From: Poseidonibacter parvus
Lineage (GTDB): Bacteria; Campylobacterota; Campylobacteria; Campylobacterales; Arcobacteraceae
DNA: 64,000 bases
Reading direction: 5' to 3'
Assembly: GCF_001956695.1 (NCBI RefSeq)
Contig: NZ_CP019070.1
Coordinates: forward strand, 186,001 to 250,000
Positions 36,501 to 43,843 of this stretch are shown piece after piece. Made by a program: the position numbers and the translations under genes. The notes beneath the pieces are model-generated. The model did not search any database. It worked only from the letters and a program-made list of their open reading frames with translations, and had not been told where the DNA came from. Every line of letters begins with the position of its first letter. Position 1 is the stretch's first letter.

Positions 36501-37877
36501 TTAATATTTTATTCTAAATTCTGAACCTTTGTTAAATTCAGAGTTGATTTCTAGTTTAAAATTATGTAAAGATAGTATGGCTTGGACTATAAATAAACCA
36601 AGTCCTAGTGAGTTGTTCCAGCCGTTATTTGAGACTCTGTAGAATTTATTTCTGATTTTTTCTAATTCTTTTGCTTCTATTCCAATACCTTTATCTTTTA
36701 TTATAATTGAATTGTCTGTAAGTTCTACAAATACTTCATCCTCTGAATATTTCAAGGCATTTTCAATTAAATTTGATATTGCCATTGAAATTAGTGTTTC
36801 ATCTACTTTTAAATCTATATCTTCTCCAGATATAATAATTTCTCTATTTTTGTATTTATCTTCTAAATCAGATGTAATATCATTTAAGATATTTTTAATA
36901 GGGCAAGGTGTTAATAGAAGTTCTTGTTTCCCTTCTTCTAATTTTAGAGTTAATCTTAGTTTATCAATTATATGAGACATTTTATTTGCATTAGAATGAA
37001 TTTTACTTAAGAACTTCTCTTTCATAACGACAGGCATATCATTATCATTTAAAATAGTTTCACTATATCCTGAAATAATTGCAATAGGATTTTTAAATTC
37101 ATGTGATAATGCAGAAATGATTTCATCTTTTTGTCTATTTGCTATTTTTAATTTTGCTGTTTGTTTTGCTTTTTGTTTTTCTCTTTTTGATAATTTTAAA
37201 GCAACTTTATTTAATAGTCTTGTTATTTTGTAAAACTCTTGTGTATATCTAGATTTTAAAATATAAGTAGGTTTTTTATCAGATAATTGGGTTAAAAAGT
37301 TTAAAATGTTATCTGTTTCTTTTTTGATTTTTATACTTATTGAGTAAGTTATAAAAAATCCAATAATTAAAAAGAATGCAATAAATCCAAAAATCTGTGC
37401 AGTAAGTTTTATAAAGTTATCTGTGATTTTATTTGTATAATCAGCCATTCTTATAAAATATATGTTTTTATTGATTGTTACTTTTTTTGCAATATATAAA
37501 AGCTCTTTATTTACTGTGTTCGAGAATCGAACAATTTTTCCAATTCCAAAATCTTTTGCTTGAAGAACTTCTTCTCTATTTGAATGATTATCCATTGATT
37601 CTTTATTTTTATCACTTTCTGCAATTACATTACCTTTTTCATCGATAATGGTAATACGAAGGTTTACACTAGCTTTTAAATCTTTTAAAATTGTATCAAT
37701 ATTATCTAAATCTTTTACTACAATAGAAAAAGTATCAATATTTTGAATAAGATTTTTTTCTATTTGATTCATATAAATATTTTTTGACCAAAAATAAGTA
37801 ACAATTGTCAACGTAAAAAGTATTCCTAAAAATATTAAAACAAATGTTCTTAAAAACAGTTGGTGAATTTTTAGCAA
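36501..37877 (-). CDS. Sensor histidine kinase (PhoR/PhosS-like)
   Basis: 458 residues. Two membrane helices (about 8-30 and 155-180) flank a periplasmic sensor domain. The kinase part has the H-box ALSHEFKNPIAIISGYSE, N-box NLIENALKYSE, G1 DKGIGIE and G2 GLGLGLFIV. Its start lies 7 nt inside the response-regulator gene, and the pair closes the pst locus, so it probably senses phosphate limitation, as the Campylobacter PhosS/PhosR pair does. Assignment by context. Confidence 0.88.
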   Translation of the reverse strand: MLKIHQLFLRTFVLIFLGILFTLTIVTYFWSKNIYMNQIEKNLIQNIDTFSIVVKDLDNIDTILKDLKASVNLRITIIDEKGNVIAESDKNKESMDNHSNREEVLQAKDFGIGKIVRFSNTVNKELLYIAKKVTINKNIYFIRMADYTNKITDNFIKLTAQIFGFIAFFLIIGFFITYSISIKIKKETDNILNFLTQLSDKKPTYILKSRYTQEFYKITRLLNKVALKLSKREKQKAKQTAKLKIANRQKDEIISALSHEFKNPIAIISGYSETILNDNDMPVVMKEKFLSKIHSNANKMSHIIDKLRLTLKLEEGKQELLLTPCPIKNILNDITSDLEDKYKNREIIISGEDIDLKVDETLISMAISNLIENALKYSEDEVFVELTDNSIIIKDKGIGIEAKELEKIRNKFYRVSNNGWNNSLGLGLFIVQAILSLHNFKLEINSEFNKGSEFRIKY

Positions 37878-38545
37878 AATATGTAACCTTCACCTCTTAC
37901 AGATTTTATATAATCTTTTGTAGAATCTGGGTCTATTTTTGCTTTTAATCTTTTTATTGCAACATTTACAGTTTTAACTTTTTTATCAAGAGAATCTTCC
38001 CAAACAGTTTCAAGTAAATGCTCTCTTGACATTAAAATATCTTTATTCTTTAGAAACTCTAAAAATAAATCATGTTCTAAGTGAGTTAGTTCTATTTCTT
38101 TTTCTTCTATGTAAAATTTTTTATTACTAGCTTTGTAAGTAATATCTCTAATTTTTAAGATATCAACTTTTTTTGAGGTTCTTTTAATAACAGCTTTTAC
38201 ACGTGCTATTAACTCTTTTACATTAAAAGGTTTTGTAATATAATCATCTGCATGTGCATCAAAACCTTCTAAAATATCTTCATCTTTATCTTTTGCAGTT
38301 ACATAAATTACAGGATTATTATAACCCTCTTTTTTTATATCATTTATAAAACTAGTTCCTTCACTTCCAGGAAGGTTTCTATCCATTAATATTAAACTAA
38401 TATCTTCTTGCTCTAAAACTTTTTTTAATGTTTTATCAACATTTAAAAAACCTATTGTTTCAAAGCCTTCTTTTTGAAGAGTATATTCAAGTAATTCTAA
38501 AATATCCTCTTCATCTTCAACAATTAAAATTAGTTTATTTTGCAT
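37871..38545 (-). CDS. OmpR/PhoB-type response regulator of the pst locus
   Basis: 224 residues. The receiver has the acidic pocket (IVEDEED), phospho-acceptor Asp55 (LILMDRNLP) and Lys105 (YITKPF). The C-terminal winged helix has IELTHLEHDLFLEFLKNK and VNVAIKRLKAKI. It overlaps both neighbours (PsiE-like by 11 nt, kinase by 7 nt). It probably activates pstS and pstC through the repeats at 42617-42633 and 43827-43843. A PhosR/PhoB role is inferred. Confidence 0.88.
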   Translation of the reverse strand: MQNKLILIVEDEEDILELLEYTLQKEGFETIGFLNVDKTLKKVLEQEDISLILMDRNLPGSEGTSFINDIKKEGYNNPVIYVTAKDKDEDILEGFDAHADDYITKPFNVKELIARVKAVIKRTSKKVDILKIRDITYKASNKKFYIEEKEIELTHLEHDLFLEFLKNKDILMSREHLLETVWEDSLDKKVKTVNVAIKRLKAKIDPDSTKDYIKSVRGEGYIFC

Positions 38546-38987
38546 CTTTCATCAACTTTTTATCTTCTTCAACTTTTTTACTTTCTCTATCATCTTCATA
38601 TTCAATAACTGTGTCTTTTGATACTTTAATAACACCAGGTGAGAATTTTATAGCTAAAATTCTAAAGATGAAAAATACACTAATAACTATCAATAAAAAA
38701 GAAATATCAAAGTAGTCCTTATTTACATGTGTTGTTAATATAATTACATCTCGAATTAAAAAGATAATAAAAATATCTATTACAAATCTAAGTCTTAACT
38801 TATGATTTTTAATAAAATCAGAAATCATTTTTACGACTTCCATAATAACAATAAATTCTAACATAAGAATAATTGCTTTATAAAAATCCAGACCAGTAGC
38901 AAGAATACCTACAAATATAATTGCTGCTGCGAGTACTTCAAAATTTGAAGAAAAGTATGTTTTTATTTTAGTAATTGCTTTTTTCAT
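38535..38987 (-). CDS. PsiE-like phosphate-starvation membrane protein
   Basis: 150 residues with four hydrophobic helices in the first 115 residues (FEVLAAAIIFVGILATGLDF; ILMLEFIVIMEVVKMISDF; VIDIFIIFLIRDVIIL; SFLLIVISVFFIFRIL) and an acidic/basic tail (EYEDDRESKKVEEDKKLMK). The pattern resembles PsiE (phosphate-starvation-inducible E). Its place between phoU and the two-component genes supports a phosphate link. Role unknown. Confidence 0.72.
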   Translation of the reverse strand: MKKAITKIKTYFSSNFEVLAAAIIFVGILATGLDFYKAIILMLEFIVIMEVVKMISDFIKNHKLRLRFVIDIFIIFLIRDVIILTTHVNKDYFDISFLLIVISVFFIFRILAIKFSPGVIKVSKDTVIEYEDDRESKKVEEDKKLMKDAK

Positions 38988-39007: not shown

Positions 39008-39676
39008 CTATGATTGTGTTATATCTCCACCCACTTGAGCAAAAAGTGCCAATGAAGCAATTGATGATGCTCTATCAGAAGTTCTTGCTAGACGTCTTAG
39101 ACTACTTAATACATCAAAATACTCTTTTGAAAGTTCAAGATTTTTTGTAATCAGTTTTAATATATTTTTTTCAACCATTGCATATAAATCATCTGCTTTA
39201 CTATCTTCAACCATTACTCTACCATATTTTTCTTCAGTGTGGTTGTCATTTGTTTCTTCAATCATTGACATTGCAGTTCTTAATGAAAGTAGGGCAGATT
39301 TATGTAAAGGAATAGTAAATTCTAAAATCGTGCTTGTGTTTAAATCATCTGAATATGCTTTTCTAAAGATTTTAATAAAACCTTTTACATTTGATGCAGC
39401 TCTGATTAATTCATTTGTAATTTTTAAAAAAGAAACCATCTCTCTTAAATCTTTTGCTTCAGGTGAATAAAGTGCAAGTGCTGTAACAATTAAATTATCA
39501 ATTTCATTAGATTTATTTGATAGTTTTTTTACAGATAAATCAATCTCTTTTAATGCAGATACATCATCACTTTTAAGTGTTTTTAATGATGTCTCAAGTG
39601 CTTCAACAACGCTATTACCAATAAGTAATACTTCATCTTTGATATTATTTCTTTTTTCTTCGTAAGTTTTTAACAT
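39008..39676 (-). CDS. phoU: PhoU-family phosphate signalling protein
   Basis: 222 residues of mostly helices in two PhoU repeats, with the acidic metal-binding patterns near EIDLSVKKLSNKSNEIDNLI and VEDSKADDLYAMVEKNI. PhoU links the Pst transporter to the phosphate sensor kinase. Its start abuts the pstB stop (1-nt overlap), so they are translationally close. Confidence 0.9.
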   Translation of the reverse strand: MLKTYEEKRNNIKDEVLLIGNSVVEALETSLKTLKSDDVSALKEIDLSVKKLSNKSNEIDNLIVTALALYSPEAKDLREMVSFLKITNELIRAASNVKGFIKIFRKAYSDDLNTSTILEFTIPLHKSALLSLRTAMSMIEETNDNHTEEKYGRVMVEDSKADDLYAMVEKNILKLITKNLELSKEYFDVLSSLRRLARTSDRASSIASLALFAQVGGDITQS

Positions 39677-40446
39677 TATCCAAATCTCCCTGTAATATAA
39701 TCTTCTGTTTTTTTGTTTGATGGGTTTACAAAAATAGTTTCTGTTTCATCATATTCTATTAGTTTTCCTAAATGGAAAAATGCTGTGTAGTCTGCTACTC
39801 TTGCTGCTTGTTGCATATTATGAGTTACTGTAATTATTGTGTAATCTTTTTTAAGCTCTAACATTAGTGCTTCAATTTTTTCTGTTGAAATTGGATCAAG
39901 TGCTGATGTTGGCTCATCCATTAAAATAACTTCTGGTTTAACAGCAATTGTTCTAGCAATACATAATCTTTGTTGCTGTCCCCCTGAAAGTGAAGTTCCT
40001 GGATCATTTAATTTATCTTTTACTTCATCCCAAAGTCCAGATTTTTTTAAAGATTGCTCAACTAAAGCATCACACTCTTTTCCTTTAGATACAATTCCAT
40101 GTTTAATAGGAGCATAGGCAACATTATCATAAATTGATTTTGGAAATGGATTTGGTTGCTGGAATACCATACCAATTCTTTTTCTAACACTTACTTCATC
40201 AACATCTTTATCATAAATATTCTTTTTATCAATTACTACTGAACCATCAATTTTTACAATTGGAATTAAATCATTCATTCTATTTAAGCATCTTAAAAAT
40301 GTAGATTTTCCACATCCTGAAGGTCCAATTAATGCAGTGATTTTATTCTCATAAATATCTACATCAATTCCATGTAAAGCATGATTATCTCCATACCAAA
40401 GATTTAGTTTATTAACTTTTACTTTTGTCTTATTATCTTTTGCCAT
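39676..40446 (-). CDS. pstB: Phosphate ABC transporter ATP-binding protein
   Basis: 256 residues from the ATG preceded by GAAGGAAAAG; an ATG 7 codons upstream, inside pstA, lacks such a site. Walker [10 protein letters not shown], signature [13 protein letters not shown], Walker [13 protein letters not shown] and the switch His (TVTHNM) are all present. RMNDLIP after Walker A is typical of PstB. It energises phosphate uptake through PstC/PstA. Confidence 0.97.
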
Positions 40447-40460
40447 TTTTACTTTTCCTT

Positions 40461-41645
40461 CTACCATTTAACTTCGAATTTTTTTCTTAAATAAATTGCA
40501 ACTGCATTAAGTGAGATTAAGATACTAAGAAGTACCATAATTCCAGCAGCTGTTTTCTCTATATACATTCTCTCTGGCATTCCTGCCCATGTAAATAATT
40601 GTGCAGGCATAACAGTTGCTGCATCCATTACAGACGTTGGTGCATCAGGTATAAATGCAATCATTCCTATAATAATAAGTGGTGCTGTCTCACCCATAGC
40701 TTGTGCTAAACCAATAATAGAACCTGTTAAAACTCCTGGAAAAGCAAGTGGTAAAACATGATCTTTTGTAACTTGTATTTTTGTTAATCCTAAACCATAT
40801 CCAGCTTGTCTAATACTATCAGGAACTGCTCTTAATGCTGCACGTGAGCTTACAATTATAATAGGTAAAGTCATAAGTGCAAGTGTAAGACCACCAACAA
40901 GTGGTGAAGAACGTGGCATTCCAAAAAGATTAATAAAAATTGCAAGTCCTAATAATCCAAATAAAATAGATGGAATAGCTGCAAGGTTATTAATATTTAC
41001 TTCAATAAATCTTGTAAATCTATTATCTTCTGCAAACTCTTCAAGATAAATTGCTGTCATAACTCCAAGTGGAAAAGCTACTAACATAGTAATACAAAGT
41101 GTTAAGATTGAACCAATCATTGCAGAGAATAGACCTGCATTTTCAGGAATCTTTGAATCTCCATGTAAAAAGAATATTGAATTAAATCTAGTTTCAATTT
41201 TTCCTTCAGCGTTTAATGTATCAACTAATGCCTTATCTTTTCTTTTTAATTTATAATGGTGACCTTTTAAATATTGATCAACTTGATCATCAGCTAAAAC
41301 CCATAAGGTTTGAGTTGTATTTAATAGCTTTGGATTTTGCTTAACTTGCATAGGTAAATCTCTAAGCCAAGACCTTGAAACTATTTTTCTATATTTTCTA
41401 TCAACTGCAAATCTTGAATCTTCAACAGATTTTTGATTATAAGCTACATTTACTTCTATGTATGTAACTTTAAATGCTGGTGTTCCTTTTCCAATTATGT
41501 CTATTAAGAAAAAGGCTAAAAATGCAATTGAAAAAATTAAAGATGTTAAAGTAAACTTCTTAAATCTCTTTGCACTTGCATGTCTTTTATCTAATGTTGG
41601 ATCGTAAAAAGGATTTTGTGTATTTTTCTTTTTTCTTTTAATCAT
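40461..41645 (-). CDS. pstA: Phosphate ABC transporter permease PstA (with long periplasmic insertion)
   Basis: 394 residues, about 100 more than usual. After a cytoplasmic lead and the first helix (about 30-50), a hydrophilic segment (about 55-165) precedes the ordinary permease core (six helices from about 170). The EAA-loop region is seen as [30 protein letters not shown]. The extra segment resembles the N-terminal domain found in some PstA proteins (DUF3333-type), probably periplasmic. Overlaps pstC by 4 nt. Confidence 0.93.
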
Positions 41646-42571
41646 AATGTATTCACTTTATATTTTTCTTTAAATTTTCTAATTAGTGACAATGAAATAA
41701 TATTTAAAATCAGTGTTACAACAAACAAAATAAGCCCTAATGCAAATGCTGAAAGAGTTTCTGGTGAATTAAATTCAAAGTCTCCAACAAGTGAGTTAAC
41801 AATCGTTACTGTAACTGTCGTCATATCTTCAAGTGGATTCCAAGAAAGATTAGGACGAAGACCTGCTGCCATTACAACAATCATAGTTTCCCCTAAGGCT
41901 TTTGATAAACCAAGTAATGAAGCTGAAATAATTCCAGGAAGTGCTGAAGGTATTACAATATCTCTTATTGTTTCACCTTGTGTAAGTCCTAGTCCTAAAG
42001 CTGCTTTTCTTTGTGAGTCTGGAACTGATCTTATTACATCATCAGATAATGATGAAATTACAGGAATAATCATAATTCCCATTACAACACCAGATGCAAG
42101 AGCAGAGTTAAATGTAGCTTCTAAACCAACAAAATCCGCCATTTTTACAATAAGAGGTGCTACTGTAATAGCTGCAAAGAATCCATAAACAACTGTAGGA
42201 ATTCCAGCTAATACTTCAAGAATAGGTTTTAGGTAATCTCTTGTATTAGAGCTTGCATACTCACTCATGTAAATAGCACTTCCAAGACCTATTGGAATTG
42301 CAACTAATAATGCAATTATTGTAATTACAAATGTACCTGCAAAAATAGGTACTGCACCAAATTTACTTCCTTCAACACCTGGAGACCATTCCGTTCCTGT
42401 AATGAAGTACCAAAAACTTCTCATTTGAAAAAATTCTATTGATTCAAAAAGAATTGAGAAAAGAATACCAAATGTAGTTAATATTGAAATACCAGATGCA
42501 ATAATTAAAGCTGATTTAATTAAATTTTCTGTTAGTTCCCTTTGTTTGTTTCTTGTTTCAAAAGTGCTCAA
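41642..42571 (-). CDS. pstC: Phosphate ABC transporter permease PstC
   Basis: 309 residues with six to seven helices and the EAA-loop SDDVIRSVPDSQRKAALGLGLTQGETIRDIVIP. The start is TTG at 42571, preceded by AAAGG; no in-frame ATG competes. It does not follow pstS directly: a terminator (42684-42711) and a separate promoter with paired repeats (42617-42633) lie between them, so pstC heads its own transcript. Confidence 0.95.
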   Translation of the reverse strand: MSTFETRNKQRELTENLIKSALIIASGISILTTFGILFSILFESIEFFQMRSFWYFITGTEWSPGVEGSKFGAVPIFAGTFVITIIALLVAIPIGLGSAIYMSEYASSNTRDYLKPILEVLAGIPTVVYGFFAAITVAPLIVKMADFVGLEATFNSALASGVVMGIMIIPVISSLSDDVIRSVPDSQRKAALGLGLTQGETIRDIVIPSALPGIISASLLGLSKALGETMIVVMAAGLRPNLSWNPLEDMTTVTVTIVNSLVGDFEFNSPETLSAFALGLILFVVTLILNIISLSLIRKFKEKYKVNTL

Positions 42572-42601: not shown

Positions 42602-42607
42602 ATTATA
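42602..42607 (-). promoter_or_regulatory. -10 box of the pstC promoter
   Basis: TATAAT on the minus strand, 9 nt downstream of the paired repeats, so the repeats take the place of a -35 box, as in PhoB-type activated promoters. Inference from spacing. Confidence 0.5.
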
Positions 42608-42616
42608 TATAAGGAT

Positions 42617-42633
42617 GGTTACAGATTGATTAC
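42617..42633 (-). promoter_or_regulatory. Pho-box-like direct repeat upstream of pstC
   Basis: On the minus strand GTAATC-AATCT-GTAACC: two hexamers 11 bp apart, 46 nt before the pstC start. The pstS promoter has GTAACC-AAATT-GTAATC at the identical distance. The 11-bp period is typical of OmpR/PhoB-family binding sites. Confidence 0.65.
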
Positions 42634-42683
42634 ATTAAGTATGAGTATAAAAAAGGGATTGTATTTATATTTATGAGAATTAT

Positions 42684-42711
42684 AAAAAAAGGAGTTTTGA
42701 CTCCTTTTTTT
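42684..42711 (-). terminator. Terminator after pstS
   Basis: A 12-bp perfect stem (42684-42695 with 42700-42711) around TTTG, A-run and T-run on the two sides, 8 nt after the pstS stop. Partial read-through could set a high PstS to PstCAB ratio. Confidence 0.8.
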
Positions 42712-42719
42712 AGTTTTAT

Positions 42720-43781
42720 TTAGTGTTTAGCAGATAAGTCAGCTAAAGTTAATTTACTTCTTTTAGAAACACTTTCTCTGATTTTATTTCTAGCTTCTGT
42801 AGGTAAAGCAATTAAACCAATTTCACCTAAGATACTATCTTCACCAATCATTTTTTCAGACATAAATAAATCAACATATTTATTCATAGCAGGTACTTCT
42901 TTTGAGTGAGAATTTTTAATATAGAAGAATAATGATCTAGATACTGGGTATTTAGAAGATGAAATATTTTCAGGAGTTGGTTCAACACCATCAATTGTAG
43001 CACCTTGAACTTTATCGTCATTTTCAACTAAGAAAGAAAAACCAAATACACCAAATGCAGCTTTATTCTTTTCTAATTTCTGAACAATTAAGTTGTCGTT
43101 TTCACCAGATTCAACATAAACACCATCTGTTCTTACTATAGAATATTTCTTATATTTTTTATTTGCTTTTTTGTCAGCTTTATAAAGGTCTGTGTATAAA
43201 GCCATTTTTTTGAAAATACTTTGCATTACTAGCTCTTCAAATGCATCTCTTGTACCAGATGATTTTGGTGGTCCATATACAATAATTTCTCTATTTGGTA
43301 ATGAAGCATCAATATCTGACCATTTTTTGTATGGGTTTGCGATTAATGATTTACCATCTTTTGAAGGAACTTCTTTTGCAACAGCTAATGCTAAGTTCTT
43401 TTTAGAAATATTAAATGGTGCATTTGAAATTGATTGTGAAAAAGCAATACCATCGTAACCAATTACTGACTCAGTAATATCTGTAACACCATTTTCTTGA
43501 CACATCTTAAATTCTTTAGTTTTCATTCTTCTAGAAGCATTTGTAATATCTGGAGTATTTAAATCATTTCCAGCACAAAATAATTTCATTCCACCACCTG
43601 AACCAGTTGATTCTACTACAGGAGTAGGAAACTTTGTAGTTGCACCGAATTCTTCAGCTACTGAAGATGAAAATGGATATACAGTTGATGATCCAACGAT
43701 TTTTATTTGATCTCTTGCACTTAAACTCATTGTTAAAGTTGCACTTGCTAATAAAGCTAATGATGTTTTCTTGATTGACAT
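42720..43781 (-). CDS. pstS: Periplasmic phosphate-binding protein
   Basis: 353 residues with a signal peptide (MSIKKTSLALLASATLTMSLSA). IKIVGSSTVYPFSSSVAEEF, ESTGSGGGMKLFCAGN and GPPKSSGTRDAFEELV are phosphate-binding loop segments of PstS-like proteins. It delivers phosphate to PstCA. First gene of the locus; a terminator follows, and its promoter carries a Pho-box-like repeat. GGAGAAC gives a good ribosome binding site. Confidence 0.95.
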   Translation of the reverse strand: MSIKKTSLALLASATLTMSLSARDQIKIVGSSTVYPFSSSVAEEFGATTKFPTPVVESTGSGGGMKLFCAGNDLNTPDITNASRRMKTKEFKMCQENGVTDITESVIGYDGIAFSQSISNAPFNISKKNLALAVAKEVPSKDGKSLIANPYKKWSDIDASLPNREIIVYGPPKSSGTRDAFEELVMQSIFKKMALYTDLYKADKKANKKYKKYSIVRTDGVYVESGENDNLIVQKLEKNKAAFGVFGFSFLVENDDKVQGATIDGVEPTPENISSSKYPVSRSLFFYIKNSHSKEVPAMNKYVDLFMSEKMIGEDSILGEIGLIALPTEARNKIRESVSKRSKLTLADLSAKH

Positions 43782-43826
43782 ATTGTTCTCCGTAATAATT
43801 TTTATGTTGGAAGTTTAATATGACTT

Positions 43827-43843
43827 GATTACAATTTGGTTAC
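43827..43843 (-). promoter_or_regulatory. Pho-box-like direct repeat upstream of pstS
   Basis: On the minus strand GTAACC-AAATT-GTAATC, hexamers 11 bp apart, beginning 46 nt before the pstS start, with a possible -10 box TATTAA at 43820-43815. Mirrors the repeat before pstC in sequence and distance. Confidence 0.65.

Follow-up and report, generated by a model that had tools for sequence, protein, structure and literature searches.

A lineage-specific PHO box predicted before pstS and pstC in the Arcobacteraceae

The pst locus of Poseidonibacter parvus

The window analysed here, a 64,000-nt stretch of the Poseidonibacter parvus chromosome (NZ_CP019070.1, positions 186,001 to 250,000; window coordinates are counted from its first letter), contains a phosphate locus that reads, on the minus strand, pstS, pstC, pstA, pstB, phoU, a psiE-like gene, a PhoB-like regulator and a PhoR-like kinase. 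The phosphate-binding protein gene pstS (42720..43781; PBP_like_2, with TIGR02136 below its cut-off) is followed by pstC with a TTG start (41642..42571), pstA (40461..41645), pstB (39676..40467), a phoU-like gene (39008..39676), a psiE-like gene (38535..38987) and the genes for a PhoB-like response regulator (37871..38545), our proposed box binder, and a PhoR-like sensor histidine kinase (36501..37877), the proposed sensor of phosphate shortage. From pstC onward the genes overlap or nearly do so. The 148-nt gap between pstS and pstC holds a terminator-like hairpin (42683..42712, minus strand; −13.7 kcal/mol, z −5.9), which the terminator scan lists on the plus strand, the stem being nearly symmetric. 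The initial annotation took it for a terminator; the hairpin is real, but its U-run belongs to the stem, so that termination may be incomplete.

A direct repeat in place of the −35 element

Upstream of pstS lies the repeat GTAACC-AAATT-GTAATC (43827..43843, minus strand), with the −10 hexamer TAAACT (43812..43817, minus strand) spaced 9 nt past it; upstream of pstC, the corresponding elements are GTAATC-AATCT-GTAACC (42617..42633, minus strand) and, again 9 nt on, TATAAT (42602..42607, minus strand). Both 17-mers are present where the initial annotation placed them, with hexamer starts 11 nt apart in each, and the genome scan that it proposed recovers exactly these two sites as matches to GTAAYC-N5-GTAAYC in the 2.87-Mb, single-contig genome, compared with one match for a reversed-pattern control. 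Within the window, the two exact matches compare with none in 100 dinucleotide-preserving shuffles.

The position of the repeats had been misread: it is their last base, and not their first, that lies at −46 (43827 to 43781 for pstS, 42617 to 42571 for pstC); the first lies at −62. The distance is indeed the same for both genes of the window but varies in relatives, at 42–51 nt for pstS (60 in one case) and 40–48 nt for pstC, so that the equality is partly luck. The true invariant is a TANAMT −10 hexamer exactly 9 nt past the repeat, rather than the 46-nt distance, in keeping with the earlier suggestion that the box stands in place of a −35 element. This hexamer is also needed to find more sites, because the bare 17-mer with one mismatch allowed performs at noise level (22 matches in the genome compared with 31 in the control) and was dropped as a finder of new members.

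Conservation across the family

The repeats are widespread in the pst promoters of relatives; their absence there, which the initial annotation would have taken as a refutation, is not observed. Among upstream regions of pst genes from 60 loci of relatives and the window, 36 of 39 for pstS (27 perfect) and 25 of 34 for pstC (17 perfect) score at least 10/12; L105 and L130 were left out, no pstC start having been located. The position of the boxes is retained even in relatives whose PstS identity is as low as 54%. In the resulting alignment of 61 pst sites, the hexamer columns are enriched by the selection itself, which does not apply to the other columns: a T precedes the second hexamer in 92% and an A follows the first in 80%. 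The −10 hexamer played no part in choosing these sites, yet each of the five bases that it specifies (T, A, A, A/C and T) is 98% conserved at +9. Together these columns give a promoter unit close to TGTAACCAAAA, in which an 11-bp direct repeat occupies the −35 position.

Searched as box-N9-TANAMT, this pattern occurs in 80 of 104 family genomes and, reversed as a control, in 0 of 104; the matches total about 130 by manual count of the table. The pstC box follows the layout of the locus, being present in 24 of the 27 loci in which pstC lies at least 90 nt from pstS and in none of the six in which the genes are closer. This is the pattern expected of two separate promoters, as the initial annotation had it, and the second promoter is therefore an option that accompanies separation of the genes.

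Several further matches were noted. Those before the EF-Tu gene in three genomes (G022, G038 and G036; L321–L323) were taken as chance because their spacing to the −10 differs. The full promoter pattern stands 38–39 nt before a gene for a PotD-like solute-binding protein in two genomes (L192 and L193; G126 and G127), and at G014:C1:164777-164808 (L196) it falls within a gene and points towards a reading frame of 94 aa, which is probably a chance match. Outside the family but within the order, related repeats stand before phoU–regulator–kinase operons, for example GTTACC-N5-GTTACC in L118; L122 is another case. In G075 (L105), a divergent regulator (37–38% identity) adjoins a pst operon with a GTATCC-N5-GTATCC box, and there regulator and box may have drifted together.

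We found no published PHO box for Arcobacter relatives in the literature searched, which covered few subscription papers. A Campylobacterales genome with pstSCAB, phoU and phoB has been reported (PMC4674564), and the passages of that report on these genes contain no promoter analysis. TGTAAYC-N4-TGTAAYC-N9-TANAMT provides a usable PHO-box definition for the family, whose phosphate regulon can therefore be read from genomes.

Predicted regulon members beyond pst

In the P. parvus genome, box-N9-TANAMT matches the two pst sites without mismatch, three sites with one and six with two; at up to two mismatches, the 11 matches compare with 7 in the control. Two of the one-mismatch promoters, both outside the window, precede genes of phosphorus economy: one lies 32 nt before a gene for the ornithine-lipid synthase OlsF (716 bits, cut-off 620; G000:C1:591146-591177, L175) and the other 41 nt before a gene for the alkaline phosphatase PhoX (317.6 bits; G000:C1:1286907-1286938, L176). 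No gene follows the third (1792048) on the strand that it reads.

Both assignments recur elsewhere in the family. Of its 104 genomes, 75 contain an olsF relative, and a box of at least 9/12 with a perfect −10 at +9 is present at 27 of the 28 olsF loci with a located start (L303 is the exception; 30 loci were fetched, including that of P. parvus, and L309 and L313, which lacked a start, were dropped). Only 7 of the 104 contain a phoX relative; the five phoX loci whose start was located all carry a box that scores 11/12 or 12/12 (seven were fetched; L318 and L320 were dropped for the same reason). For comparison, 23 of 2,400 random 140-nt windows from pst loci score at least 15/17, a set into which the pst promoters themselves may fall. 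Boxes also precede phnF–phnC in G009 and a second pstS in G106; a Cj0069-family gene in G009 has one too, with an imperfect −10. The genes behind the boxes are mostly phosphate genes (pstS, pstC, phoX, olsF and phnF–phnC). From the shared promoter pattern, the same regulator very probably drives phoX and olsF in P. parvus too, making both predicted regulon members, to which relatives add a c-di-GMP enzyme (see below). As a separate observation, the full pattern lies 29 nt before a gene for a methyl-accepting chemotaxis protein in G025 (L194), possibly for phosphate taxis.

The candidate regulator

The initial annotation pointed to the response regulator at 37871 as the obvious candidate, and by synteny, homology and conserved DNA-contact residues it is the best one. 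Its best NCBIfam model is PhoB (TIGR02154 equivalog, 172 bits, below the cut-off of 296.2), that of the adjoining kinase is PhoR (TIGR02966 equivalog, 140 bits, below the cut-off of 334.2), and the regulator has both receiver and winged-helix domains. According to PMC3264566, PhoB makes base-specific contacts through T194, V197, R201 and R219, and its recognition helix carries D196, for which the window regulator has N. All four contact residues are kept, as T192, V195, R199 and R217, and the recognition helix TVNVAIKRLK, or a near-identical one, occurs in most family members. At the position of H198 in the E. coli helix, the window regulator has A.

In most of the family loci read, the operon behind the box includes the regulator gene. 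The strict promoter pattern is present in 33 of 41 genomes with the regulator and in 0 of 8 without it (Fisher p 2.9e-5; 49 family genomes, kinship ignored), and most of the eight also lack a pstS match. On both grounds only G015 is informative on the pairing of regulator and box: this genome keeps pstSCAB–phoU (L095) and has neither a regulator match nor a box (score 8/12). G049 has a similar recognition helix yet a TGTCAT-type box. Taken together, the product of 37871-38545 is most likely the protein that would bind the boxes.

A c-di-GMP enzyme in the pst locus of relatives

The pst locus of relatives (L090, L092, L097, L123, L141 and others) contains a gene for a c-di-GMP phosphodiesterase-like protein, about 575 aa long, in which EAL and GGDEF domains are combined; of three such proteins scanned, one also has a CBS domain scoring above cut-off. 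Relatives of this gene are detected by tblastn in 25 of 61 sequences (60 loci and the window piece). It mostly stands between pstS and pstC, ahead of the second box, and precedes pstS in L096 and L130; in L100 the match is apart from the pst genes and in L103 it is weak (33%) and on the opposite strand. The gene was not found in the window piece by tblastn, and the P. parvus genome has no match at E up to 1e-40, which is weak evidence of absence. G022 and G048 have no pstSCAB at the locus, which runs prfA, box, EAL gene, phoU, psiE, regulator and kinase.

We tentatively propose, giving it somewhat less than an even chance, that the Arcobacteraceae Pho regulon, with its own PHO-box spelling and OlsF lipid remodelling added, is coupled to c-di-GMP signalling within the pst locus. 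If this were true, the EAL–GGDEF gene would be expressed with pstS, and phosphate shortage would lower c-di-GMP, favouring departure from surfaces; the box, phosphodiesterase and phoU–psiE–phoB–phoR retained in G022 and G048 would then look as though c-di-GMP output alone were reason enough to preserve them.

A model for the switch and its alternatives

From the box sequence, its genome-wide rarity, the fixed −10 spacing, the conservation in the family and the functions of the genes behind it, we infer the identity of the binding protein, the response to phosphate and activation. The two repeats are, with high confidence, PHO boxes through which the PhoB-like regulator, under the PhoR-like kinase, would drive the pstS and pstC promoters in phosphate shortage. 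In the proposed mechanism, phosphate shortage leads the kinase (36501-37877) to phosphorylate the regulator (37871-38545), two molecules of which would sit head-to-tail on the two 11-bp repeats, replacing the −35 element, and bring sigma-70 RNA polymerase to the −10 hexamer that follows after 9 nt. The pstS promoter would yield a pstS mRNA and the pstC promoter a pstCAB–phoU–psiE–phoB–phoR mRNA; with its own gene on the latter, the regulator is proposed to raise its own level too.

The identity of the binder is where this reading has its nearest competitor. OmpR-family proteins generally bind direct repeats, and some family genomes contain further OmpR/PhoB-type regulators (weaker matches), so the repeats could be true operators that serve a different member of this family encoded in the genome, and not the 37871 product. 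We consider this unlikely: most of the family loci read have the 37871-type gene itself inside the operon that the box precedes, phoU–regulator–kinase operons of other families (for example L118 and L122) carry their related repeats before phoU, and the boxed genes are mostly phosphate genes.

That no dedicated activator is involved, the hexamers being parts of ordinary sigma-70 promoters with an odd −35, is very improbable. A good −10 at a fixed distance is what such promoters would show, but they do not account for a two-copy repeat with an 11-bp period that is confined to two promoters in the genome and marks phosphate genes throughout the family, and at neither of the two −10 hexamers does the promoter scan call a promoter of the TTGACA type. 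Least of all do we credit a chance resemblance in AT-rich intergenic DNA, to which the background-level count of bare one-mismatch 17-mers might seem to point; this negligible prospect is at odds with the empty shuffles and the constant place of the boxes in distant relatives, and is refuted by the reversed-pattern control across the 104 genomes. In agreement with the initial annotation, the boxes are very probably the familiar PHO switch with a lineage-specific half-site, TGTAAYC; we read them as a PHO-type switch in its own spelling because the same sign precedes the genes for alkaline phosphatase and for a phosphorus-free lipid.

Comparison with known systems

PMC4415409 describes the PHO box as a pair of direct repeats of 11 nt each, with a consensus that varies by species, and its description of two 7-nt direct repeats with an 11-bp period applies to the window repeats. 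As in E. coli and other Gammaproteobacteria, the half-sites are direct, 11 bp apart, begin with TGT and replace the −35 element, with the −10 at a fixed spacing (61 sites at +9), before genes of phosphate acquisition, here pstS, pstC, phoX, olsF and phnF–phnC; the homologous regulators share the four base-contact residues. The half-site differs, reading TGTAAYC here and TGTCAT/C in E. coli, a departure from the TGTCAT spelling that is compatible with a PHO box because the consensus varies by species (PMC4415409). A scan of named genomes for pstS relatives returned 80 records, 20 with gammaproteobacterial titles, and TGTCAT-N5-TGTCAT scores at least 10/12 upstream of pstS in 18 of these 20 (the misses are L255 and L272), in some records (L230, L242, L243) at 50–53 nt, like the window boxes. 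Seven records (L230, L234, L236, L239, L240, L242 and L243), mostly of methanotrophs or symbionts, combine gamma-type boxes with a PstS 68–72% identical to that of the window, an identity probably due to gene transfer. Such related pst operons with TGTCAY boxes form a natural pair with those described here for following the joint drift of the PhoB recognition helix and its site.

Within the phylum, C. jejuni PhosS/PhosR is described, in passages of three reports, as a two-component system that activates pstS, pstC and phoX in phosphate shortage (PMC3197622, PMC6250842, PMC9449129). The system predicted here shares these three targets. The C. jejuni box reportedly reads GTTTC-N-AAAA-N-GTTTC, a spelling attributed to Wosten in 2006; this 16-mer is present in 13 of 149 genomes of the order, and the downstream genes seen were not pst-like by eye.

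The two additions to the regulon have counterparts elsewhere. In V. cholerae, synthesis of phosphorus-free ornithine lipid by OlsF depends on PhoB, according to passages of PMC12186959; the family's olsF genes likewise have a promoter box, from which we predict similar regulation, although the spelling of the box differs, as judged from the gamma-type box. In P. fluorescens, low phosphate brings about expression of the c-di-GMP phosphodiesterase RapA (PMC3032545), so that a link between Pho and c-di-GMP is not without precedent. Like RapA, the predicted EAL–GGDEF enzyme belongs to a phosphate-linked setting, its gene lying within the boxed pst locus of relatives; unlike RapA, it is encoded between pstS and pstC, a place from which it is absent in the window genome.
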